A stretch of DNA of 64,000 nucleotides, from contig NZ_LT984887.1 in NCBI RefSeq assembly GCF_900258475.1, positions 945,919 to 1,009,918 on the forward strand, given 5' to 3'. Positions 12,805 through 29,445 of this stretch are shown here, one piece after another (within the stretch, counting starts at the first letter, position 1; each line of letters opens with the position of its first letter). This DNA comes from Anaerococcus sp. Marseille-P3915. GTDB lineage: Bacteria > Bacillota > Clostridia > Tissierellales > Peptoniphilaceae. The translations under genes were made by a program, and so were the position numbers. Under the pieces are notes generated by a model. That model worked only from the letters and a program-made list of their open reading frames with translations. It searched no databases and had not been told where the DNA came from.

Positions 12805-12853
12805 AAAATTAAAAGAAAAATTTTTCACAAATATAGGAAAAAAATATAAACTT

Positions 12854-12956
12854 CTCTCATCCAGACTCTAACTGTCGGTATCGGAATTTCACCGATTCGG
12901 CTTTCGCTCGCAGACTATAACTGCCGGTGGGGAATTACGCCCCGCCCTGAAGATTA
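12854..12956 (-). ncRNA. FMN riboswitch (RFN element)
   Basis: Read on the minus strand, the aptamer shows the conserved RFN blocks: TTCAGGGCGGGG, AATTCCCCACCGGCAGT, AAGCCGAATCGGTGAAATTCCG and ACAGTTAGAGTCTGGATGAGAGAAG. FMN binding is known to shut off riboflavin genes. The terminator at 12782-12804 is the likely expression platform. Confidence 0.97.
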
Positions 12957-12973
12957 TTTCTAATTACATATAT

Positions 12974-27418: not shown

Positions 27419-27685
27419 ATGGCAAATATTAAATCAAGTCAAAAAAGAATTGAAGTCGCTAAAAGAAATACTCTTAGAAATAAGTCAAGAAAATCAGCAA
27501 TCAAAACTTACATCAAAAAGTTTGAAGCAGCTATAGAAGCAAATGAACTAGACCAAGCTAGAGAATTACTAAAATTAGTTGACAAAAAGCTAAAACAAGC
27601 AGAAAGCAAAAATGTAATCCATAAAAACAGAGTTGCATCTGTAACATCAAGATTAGCTAAAAAATTAAACGCAGCAAACGCATAA
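27419..27685 (+). CDS. rpsT: 30S ribosomal protein S20
   Basis: The protein has 88 residues, helical and very basic. It starts MANIKSSQKRIEVAKRN and ends VASVTSRLAKKLNAANA. It binds 16S rRNA early in assembly. It is divergent from lepB. Its transcript runs toward a long hairpin and then a repeat array. Confidence 0.97.
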   Translation: MANIKSSQKRIEVAKRNTLRNKSRKSAIKTYIKKFEAAIEANELDQARELLKLVDKKLKQAESKNVIHKNRVASVTSRLAKKLNAANA

Positions 27686-27686
27686 G

Positions 27687-27745
27687 AAAATGAGTGATAA
27701 TCAGTAATGGATCCCGACATATGACTACTGATAATCACTCATTTT
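27687..27745 (+). terminator. Long hairpin after rpsT
   Basis: AAAATGAGTGATAATCAGTA and TACTGATAATCACTCATTTT form a 20-bp stem with one mismatch around a 19-base loop. It starts directly after the rpsT stop. The T-run is short, so it may act as a terminator or as a 3' end protector. Confidence 0.65.
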
Positions 27746-27752
27746 AAATGTA

Positions 27753-27903
27753 GTAAAAATTTTGCGAGCAAAATTTTTACGGTTTTCACAATTTATCGAA
27801 CAACAAAGTTGTGAAGATAAATTGATGAAAAACATTATGCAGGGAGGAAAGAACGACGAGACGAATAGGAGCGTTGAGCTTTCCGATTCGCAAATAGTAG
27901 AGC
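27753..27903. repeat. Structured repeat, unit 1
   Basis: This is the first of five related units. A 28-base perfect palindrome with a GA centre (27753-27780) is followed by GGTTTTCAC, then hairpin A: AATTTATC (27790-27797) with GATAAATT (27816-27823), and inside it ACAAC with GTTGT around AAA. A linker TGATGAAAAACATTATGCAG leads to hairpin B: GGAAAG (27846-27851) with CTTTCC (27879-27884), capped by the conserved GACGAATAGGAGCGTT. No coding role is apparent. Confidence 0.8.
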
Positions 27904-28050
27904 ACAAATATTGCTAGCAATATTTTGCGGTTTTCACAATTTTGCAAGCACAAAGTGCGCAGGAAAATTGATGAAAAACCTTATGCAGCGAAGAAAAAAG
28001 GACGCGACGAAAAGGAGCGTTCTTTTTTTGTAGTCGCATAGGATAAAGAC
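27904..28050. repeat. Structured repeat, unit 2
   Basis: The layout matches unit 1, but the arms differ in sequence and still pair: AAATATTGC/GCAATATTT (27906-27925), hairpin A AATTTT/AAAATT with GCAC-AAA-GTGC inside, and hairpin B GAAAAAAGGACGC (27993-28005) with GCGTTCTTTTTTT (28017-28029). It ends with GTCGCATAGGATAAAGAC. Confidence 0.8.
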
Positions 28051-28195
28051 ATGACCTGCGAGCAAAATTTTTACGGTTTTCACGATTTTACAAGCACGAA
28101 GTGCGCAGGAAAATTGATGAAAAACCTTATGCAGCGAAGAAAAAAGGACGCGACGAATAGGAGCGTTCTTTTTTTGTAGTCGCATAGGATAAAGA
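28051..28195. repeat. Structured repeat, unit 3
   Basis: It is nearly identical to unit 2 from GGTTTTCAC onward. The left arm of the first palindrome is degraded. The apical loop of hairpin A reads GCAC-GAA-GTGC. Hairpin B lies at 28139-28175. Confidence 0.8.
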
Positions 28196-28286
28196 TACCC
28201 CATTGCTAGAAAAACTTTATGCAGGGAGAGAAATTCAACGCGACGAACAGGAGCGTTTAATTTCTCGAGTCGCATAGGATAAAGAC
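28196..28286. repeat. Structured repeat, unit 4 (hairpin A deleted)
   Basis: This short unit goes from the ATTGCTAG remnant directly to AAAACTTTATGCAGGGA. Hairpin B has a new arm sequence that still pairs: GAGAAATT-C-AACGC (28228-28241) with GCGTT-T-AATTTCTC (28253-28266). It ends GTCGCATAGGATAAAGAC. Confidence 0.75.
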
Positions 28287-28406
28287 ACACCTTTGCAAGC
28301 AATTTTTTTGCAATTTCACAATTTATCGAATGAGAATCAGAAATAGAAATCGATAAAAATCTTATAATAAACTAAAAAGAACGTCTTAATAGCAACGTTC
28401 TTTTTT
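28287..28406. repeat. Structured repeat, unit 5 (degenerate, terminator-like end)
   Basis: TTTATCGA (28322-28329) pairs with TCGATAAA (28350-28357) in the hairpin A place. AAAAAGAACGT (28374-28384) pairs with ACGTTCTTTTTT (28395-28406) in the hairpin B place, with a diverged loop. The last hairpin has flanking A and T runs and can serve as terminator for holA on the minus strand and for plus-strand transcripts. Confidence 0.7.
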
Positions 28407-28431: not shown

Positions 28432-29445
28432 CTAAATCCCCACAAAAGCAATCAACTTCAAGAGCTCATCTTTCATATCAAAATTTTCTGACTTGCTTCT
28501 TTTTTCCATATCAAATAACCTTTCATTTATATCGATTAATTCATCAAGGCTGAAATTTCTTATAAAATCCTTGGCTTTTTTTAGTTCAAAGCTTCCTATC
28601 TTTGCTGTTTTCATCATAAAGGAGTCGTTGTAGGATGCTTGACTTAGGCTTTTTATGGTTGTTAAAATCCTTATTTGCCTTATTATCATATGGTAGACCA
28701 TAAAAAGGTCTTCTCCTGATTTTGCCATGGATAAGAAGGTCTTCATGGCTGTTTTTGTGTCTTTTTTGGAAAGGGCATCTGTTAGGTTAAATATGGATAG
28801 GTTAAGGACTTGATCTAGTTGGTCTTCTATATCCTCTCTTGTGATGACTTCATTATTTGAATTTGATATAATTTTATCTACTGAGTTTACTATTTCATAT
28901 AAGTCTACTTCGCTATTGTAGGAAAGATAGGAAAACCTGTCTACTATTTCTCCAATAAATTGGTTTGAAATTTTCTTATTTTTGCTTAAGAATCTCTTGC
29001 CAATAAAGGACCTCAGCTCCCTATTATTTAGCCTTTCGATTTCTACGATATTTCCCTGCTTTTTAACTTCCTTGTAAAACTTGCCCTTAAACGGCTTATT
29101 ATCTGAAAATATCATAAGAGTAGCATAGGCTGGGAAATCTGCCAAATCTTTGCTTAGCTCATCTAAGACTTCTTTGTAAGAAGCGACCTTATCTTTACTT
29201 AGGTCTATATTCTGCCAGATTATTATCTTCTTATCTTCCATGACAGGATAGGTTTCGTAGGAATTTTTGAGACTTTCGTAGTCTGTTTCGCCCTTTATCC
29301 TGATTAGGTTAAAGTCTTTTATATTTATTTTTCTCTCTGCCTCTTCTATCAGGGTGGTATTGAGGTATTCTTCCTCAGAATCAAATAAATAAACTCCGCT
29401 AGTTTGATTACCACTTAGACTTTTAAAAAAATCTACATATTTCAT
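28432..29445 (-). CDS. holA: DNA polymerase III subunit delta
   Basis: The protein has 337 residues with the HolA three-domain AAA+ fold and no Walker motifs, as expected. Visible family stretches are VYLFDSEEEYLNTTLIEEA near the start, IIWQNIDLSKDK, and the C-terminal collar with IIRQIRILTTIKSL. It is the clamp-loader subunit that opens the sliding clamp. It overlaps comEC by four bases; comEC-holA-rpsT is a standard Firmicutes order. Confidence 0.92.
   Translation of the reverse strand: MKYVDFFKSLSGNQTSGVYLFDSEEEYLNTTLIEEAERKINIKDFNLIRIKGETDYESLKNSYETYPVMEDKKIIIWQNIDLSKDKVASYKEVLDELSKDLADFPAYATLMIFSDNKPFKGKFYKEVKKQGNIVEIERLNNRELRSFIGKRFLSKNKKISNQFIGEIVDRFSYLSYNSEVDLYEIVNSVDKIISNSNNEVITREDIEDQLDQVLNLSIFNLTDALSKKDTKTAMKTFLSMAKSGEDLFMVYHMIIRQIRILTTIKSLSQASYNDSFMMKTAKIGSFELKKAKDFIRNFSLDELIDINERLFDMEKRSKSENFDMKDELLKLIAFVGI

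Follow-up and report, generated by a model that had tools for sequence, protein, structure and literature searches.

A tandem array of three-hairpin repeats behind rpsT and its dispersed, probably mobile relatives in Anaerococcus and some related bacteria

The window analysed here is a stretch of 64,000 nucleotides, in which an array of repeats occupies positions 27746-28406 of the + strand, between rpsT (27419..27685, +) and the convergent downstream gene holA (28432..29445, -). Both genes are open reading frames that carry the names given in the original prediction. That prediction had placed repeats downstream of rpsT and before holA, where they were indeed present; the location of the array was right, and its true start was moved to 27746, inside the T-tract of the intrinsic rpsT terminator (27687..27745, +; an inverted repeat with arms at 27687-27706 and 27726-27745). 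A full unit is about 150 bp long and consists of a palindrome (P), a hairpin A, a linker, and a hairpin B. The units are spaced at 146, 146, and 90 nt and are followed by a remnant. What had been described as five units of about 145 bp is a repeat array as claimed, but the count was restated as three nearly complete units, one partial unit, and one decayed unit, because the fourth lacks P and most of hairpin A and the fifth was unmatched.

Unit 1 (27746..27891, +; 117.1 bits with R1, a covariance model built on hairpins A and B) has the left end AAATGTAG and comprises P at 27753-27780, hairpin A at 27781-27833, and hairpin B at approximately 27841-27891. Unit 2 (27892..28042, +; R1, 131.8 bits) has the left end AAATAGTAG, P at approximately 27900-27928, hairpin A at 27929-27980, and the linker and hairpin B at 27981-28042. 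The third unit (28043..28188, +; R1, 133.9 bits) retains only the 3' arm of P (approximately 28058-28074), followed by hairpin A at 28075-28126 and hairpin B at 28127-28188. The hairpin B of the partial unit 4 (28202..28285, +; R1, 56.4 bits) is whole, with the stem GAGAAATT/AATTTCTC and the loop GACGAACAGGA. Unit 5 (28286..28406, +) gave no R1 match at E<=0.01 and lies in register within repeat family D3; the hairpin with a T-run at its end (28373-28406) might be a terminator. The predicted fold of unit 2 reached -52.3 kcal/mol compared to a shuffled mean of -28.4 (z -7.1; 0 of 200 shuffles as low), while its reverse strand reached -38.8 kcal/mol (z -4.9). It was noted that AGGAGCGTT, a motif picked after the repeat had been seen, occurs four times in the window against 0.15 expected. 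A 122-aa ORF spanning the array was taken as spurious. Elsewhere in the window, an FMN riboswitch (12845-12958, -; 109 bits in Rfam) and a tRNA-Thr (GGT) (266-341, +) were recorded.

We found that the units share the consensus (T)TAATGGTAG, P, hairpin A, the linker CTTATG(C/T)A, hairpin B with the loop GACGAANAGGA or variants of it, and a right end of GTCGC or GATTACGTTC. The stem of P is mostly 12-13 bp and its loop mostly 4 nt; the G-T counts for P were skewed by the search score used and were discarded. The segment GGTTTTCAC, predicted as a separate spacer, is instead the 5' foot of hairpin A, pairing with TGAAAAACC across bulges. Across the family this foot consists of GGTTTTCAC/GATGAAAAACC, and 103 of 120 rows retain its bulged A. 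Of 123 rows, 45 have the B loop GACGAANAGGA in its exact 11-nt form, and the commonest loop of a different kind is GACCGAAUAGGGA. The base of hairpin B takes three forms in the seed copies, namely CTTATGCAGCGA..GTCGC, CTTATGTAAT..ATTACGTTC, and CTTCTGCAGGGAAG..CTGATTCGC, and the stem variants listed in the original prediction were all located in the sequence. The modules are separable, with units lacking P or lacking B and with modules that differ independently. A GTAG, GTAA, or GGAG tag often stands immediately 5' of P (GGAG in the guaA-type copies), and among 50 non-redundant TAATG sites this tag ends in G in 70% and in A in 30%. Inspection by eye revealed no long terminal inverted repeats, and a pseudoknot between the linker and the B loop was weighed by eye and dropped.

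The genes called pgi, groEL, guaA, rplS, and rubrerythrin carry putative names, assigned from the ends of their proteins. A search for copies in related genomes, proposed together with the original prediction, was successful. Relatives were recovered in 12 of 31 genus genomes by a BLAST-type search and in 15 of 31 with the covariance model (E<=1e-3). With stricter filters and E<=1e-4, the model matched 30 of 130 family genomes (4 of 39 genera) and 32 of 249 order genomes (5 of 92 genera). In all, 123 units were collected from 30 genomes, where they occupy 92 places when orthologous places in different species are counted separately. Five genomes contributed 80 of the 123 units from the fetched loci (G115, 20; G001, 18; G000, 17; G009, 15; G005, 10). 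Covariance-model matches ranged from 0 to 18 per genome in the genus and family searches, and species of one genus differed from 0-3 up to 10-18 copies. Outside the family there are two carriers (E 2.6e-5 and 9.5e-5), which have hairpins A and B, including the conserved bulge and a GACCAAAGGGA loop, and no P. P is therefore not the core of the element. The copies in these two carriers lie, as judged by eye, directly behind apparent terminators. Among the carriers with a name is Anaerococcus vaginalis ATCC 51170 (L409; R1, 117.7 bits), which points to Anaerococcus, of the family Peptoniphilaceae, as the genus of the window. The repeats form a small non-coding family with three hairpins, scattered close to the ends of genes in Anaerococcus and some of its relatives.

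Searches beyond these genomes were also assessed. A scan with a 15-letter loop pattern returned at least 118 stretches from genome contigs and 63 from viral contigs, and all 181 were rescored with R1; among the matches listed, one was strong (L409) and three were weak at 28-30 bits (L395, L406, and L420). The three weak matches, all from Candidatus Omnitrophota, were taken as chance since the loop pattern had preselected them. The phage and plasmid collections gave no match to 391 nt of the array. An Rfam scan, likewise proposed at the outset, showed that no family fits the unit: with Rfam 15 on the window, the array, and 18 copy-bearing loci, no family exceeded its gathering threshold on the unit, and at a permissive threshold the array yielded six matches up to E 1, the best being a worm snoRNA at 27.4 bits with a threshold of 40. 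In the open-licence literature searched, no description of this three-hairpin repeat was found.

We compared filled and empty sites among related genomes. At pgi, the empty site in G005 reads GGATAT-TAGATAGAA and the filled site in G009 reads GGATAT-TAATGGTAG...GTCGC-TAGATAGAA, so that the junction is exact; the right flanks are identical for 9 nt and then diverge. TA stands at both ends of this insertion, either as a target duplication or as an end of the element. Site D (G005 compared to G009 and G001) is flanked by long homologous stretches on either side and differs in a few bases at the junctions, and at site I (G009 compared to G001 and G005) the comparison agrees, with diverged junctions. 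The rpsT gene was matched in 29 of the 31 genus genomes, and among those displayed, four (G008, G006, G014, and G025) carry a similar rpsT terminator without the array. Because related genomes have the same places filled and empty, these orthologous empty sites indicate that the element is probably mobile.

Many copies were located in T-rich intergenic places, at stop codons, in terminator T-tracts, or just before a Shine-Dalgarno sequence on the opposite strand. Measured from a sense stop codon, the left end falls between -12 and +20 nt at 30 of the 92 places; at 16 others it lies in a run of four or more T, with no overlap between the two sets; antisense placement just before a Shine-Dalgarno sequence was read by eye at 8 places (approximately 4 orthologous sites). 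The left end is TAATG at 58 of the 92 places and GAATGGGA at 16, and a T precedes TAATG in 80% of the 50 non-redundant sites, which were selected for TAATG. Orientation relative to replication in G009 appeared mixed by eye. Six nested units sit within the B loop of another unit, whose stem resumes after the insertion, imperfectly in L119. The right junction base that these nested units have in common suggests that some or all of them may descend from one event.

Several other sequences were encountered around the copies. A second hairpin repeat of about 60 nt (ACTAAAGTATCAG...CTTCAGTT) lies inside the P loop of L090 at site D in G001 and is absent from the orthologous G009 copy (L127); similar sequences were noted in L092, L112:5230, and L115:9178. 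Several copies (L123, L124, L128, and L117) have ATCCGAGAT-like sequence on both flanks, which in some of them leads into a palindromic, G+C-rich stretch (GGGGACCCC...) that is apparently another dispersed family. Two G115 copies (L134 and L136) are preceded by GGAGGGGC and followed by GCCCCTCC, an arrangement that would fit a position within a larger palindromic element. The sequence behind guaA is highly variable in the genus and often contains a motif resembling GAATGGGA, giving the impression of a site where islands insert; close behind the guaA-type copies, the Rfam family SpR18_sRNA (RF02446, described from Streptococcus) scored above threshold at L102:3192-3322 and L113:5012-5142 (+).

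The hairpins had been predicted to covary, and this was borne out. When the 20 copies of the seed were aligned with MAFFT and the structure was supplied by hand, 90.0% of 678 cells were paired compared to 45-52% with slid partners, and double changes were found at 22 of 34 pairs. Across the 122 distinct rows among the 123 aligned by the model, an alignment biased toward the structure and toward G-U, 89.9% of 3710 cells pair, compared to 64.6% in shuffles and 38-46% with slid partners, with double changes at all 34 pairs. G-U occupied 128 cells versus 45 for A-C, an excess that is partly built in since the covariance model tolerates G-U. The predicted RNA energy was -39.0 kcal/mol on the better strand and -31.8 kcal/mol on the other, and was lower on the same strand in 113 of 123 units; with DNA parameters, this strand was lower in 118 of 123. 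Columns with at least 90% identity comprise 16 of 59 unpaired and 6 of 62 paired positions, and mean column identity is close (0.71 unpaired; 0.67 paired).

The original prediction had also inferred selection on structure from compensatory change. When copies with a similarity of at least 85% were compared, hairpin A showed 95 compensated doubles, 84 one-sided changes preserving the pairing, and 248 disrupting it (4952 cells; 270 copy pairs), with about 5 doubles expected by chance from a rough hand estimate based on per-site divergence. Hairpin B showed 76, 95, and 156, respectively (2367 cells; 185 copy pairs); in both comparisons the copy pairs are not independent events. The compensated doubles of hairpin A exceed the rough chance estimate, but one-sided changes that disrupt pairing are more frequent, and the argument has to be qualified because the stems also change as blocks at shared sites. 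At pgi in three species, P is identical except for one loop base, hairpin A agrees in two, and hairpin B is different in all three; behind groEL in genus g36, G111 has the P and nearly all of the hairpin A of G109 together with nearly all of the hairpin B of G117 and G110. Because whole modules are replaced as blocks at orthologous sites, many of the double changes do not count as stepwise compensation. The module differences would follow from exchange between copies or from rearrangement inside arrays, and the family serves as a warning that covariation may arise partly through module exchange.

Three options had been offered for the repeats: a small RNA, a protein-binding RNA or DNA element, or a MITE-like mobile palindrome. 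The mobile-element option is best supported by the dispersed copies, the orthologous empty sites, and the tandem and nested copies. On balance, we favor reading the array as one tandem cluster from a new family of non-autonomous small mobile elements whose structure is conserved, comparable in kind to BOX or bcr1. Against this reading weigh the concentration of 80 of the 123 units in five genomes, the exact B loop being shared by 45 of 123 rows, the similar mean identity of paired and unpaired columns, the lack of visible long terminal inverted repeats, and the transposase searches described below, which identified no mobilizing enzyme. The array units may also represent a candidate multi-copy small RNA.

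A cis-acting RNA element of 3' UTRs is a possible but less likely explanation. Its hairpins would terminate the mRNA, protect it, or use the B loop to bind a protein, with selection on the RNA keeping the pairing and occasional copying spreading the element. Consistent with such a role, at 30 of the 92 places the strand that folds better lies in sense immediately behind a gene, folding favors one strand and includes G-U pairs, and close copies carry compensated changes. T-runs occur after or at the end of B2 and B3, and well-paired copies are found at the rpsT site in four species. However, at the 8 antisense places before a Shine-Dalgarno sequence, an mRNA would carry the less well folding strand. 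The difference of 0-3 versus 10-18 copies between species of one genus and the nested copies that break the loop of the outer copy also argue against it.

Another explanation, which we regard as rather unlikely, is that P and its tag form a REP-like palindrome moved by a Y1 transposase (RAYT or IS200-type), with hairpins A and B as passengers. The tag 5' of P resembles that of GTAG-tagged REPs as they are described in PMC3733652, hairpins lie near both ends of the element, and resident IS200 copies likewise lie behind T-rich stretches. However, the order-level relatives that have A and B without P speak against it, as do the enzymes. Y1 transposase matches were present in 21 of 31 genus genomes, with none in the carriers G005, G017, G022, G027, and G030; the absence from G005 and G017 is not firm because these assemblies are fragmented and an IS may be missed. 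Among draft assemblies, G005 has 10 copies and no Y1 match, whereas G002 has 10 Y1 matches and no copies. By eye, no ends common to the repeat and the resident IS200 were seen at seven IS200 loci (the L177 row is empty, and the left part of L183, the IS200 locus of the window's own genome, is unaligned). The IS630-type DDE_3 domain was matched in 4 of 31 genus genomes, with three over the cut-off and one in a low-copy carrier (G018), and in none of the high-copy carriers G000, G001, G005, and G009; G115 (20 units) was left out of the transposase searches. As the Y1 genes do not track the copies, DDE_3 was unmatched in these four high-copy carriers, and the IS200 ends look unrelated, neither Y1 nor IS630 transposases are supported as mobilizers.

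It is improbable, in our assessment, that the covariation arose without selection, as a mutational by-product of templated repair in which one arm is copied from the other. Stems do often differ as blocks, with 34 distinct 11-nt arms among the 44 B hairpins that have the standard loop, and many changes are from A-U to U-A. However, repair of this type should erase bulges, and the bulged A of hairpin A was widely kept; the block changes are also explained at least partly by module exchange. If the region of the rpsT terminator had simply been duplicated locally, the tandem units and the T-tract at their start would be accounted for, but this explanation is refuted by the dispersal of the 123 related units.

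Returning to the favored reading of a non-autonomous mobile element, a mechanism may be proposed. A recombinase or transposase supplied in trans would recognize the folded single strand by those of its unpaired bases that stay fixed, in the manner of integrases acting on attC, and would insert the element at a T-rich TA. Stem variants could then spread by recombination between copies in the conserved linkers, while copies that lose their pairing would stop spreading. We infer that the fold would serve movement as single-stranded DNA, a role that competes with one in RNA. Within 3' UTRs, the element might plausibly also have an effect such as termination or mRNA protection. By analogy, a more speculative form of this mechanism, to which we give little weight, is a self-targeting element in which the trans-acting enzyme would read mainly the unpaired bases, arm-copying would renew the paired stems at each move, and the B loop would be a preferred landing site; if so, landing in the B loop would yield hairpins nested in hairpins.

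The family joins clear structural conservation with nearly free stem sequence, and it is distinguished by its three-part structure, stem turnover, module differences at shared sites, and nesting. With its many natural variants, fixed unpaired positions, empty sites, and exchanged modules, it is therefore a good system for the question of whether such a fold serves movement or an RNA function.

Comparisons with known systems were made from their descriptions. The BOX elements of Streptococcus pneumoniae are described in PMC3049150 as modular, hairpin-forming, intergenic, of narrow host range, and regarded as parasitic. Modules are lost or repeated in both families, the internal module of BOX being absent or present in multiple copies, but by that description BOX has terminal inverted repeats and target duplications, whereas no long terminal repeats were seen here. 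The bcr1 repeats of the Bacillus cereus group, given as 147-167 bp in PMC2267715, are similar in size, intergenic location, predicted fold, mobile-element features, and strain-variable copy number (PMC6542083, PMC2267715). They belong to another host group, however, and the mobility of bcr1-type repeats is linked to a TTTAT motif in the account of PMC6542083, compared by description to the TA at the ends here. GTAG-tagged REPs, reported in PMC3733652 as 20-40 bp, mostly downstream of genes, and plausibly transcribed, share a GTAG-like tag 5' of a palindrome and a location mostly behind genes. In contrast, P is here one of three hairpins with a variable stem, and no Y1 gene tracks the copies. 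Integron attC sites, as portrayed in PMC2727003, are poorly conserved in sequence, with one folded strand recognized by extrahelical bases and with a variable terminal part. Fixed unpaired bases and free stems recall them as an analogy of mechanism only, whereas the units here abut without gene cassettes between them. The family is filed under none of BOX, bcr1, REP, or attC.
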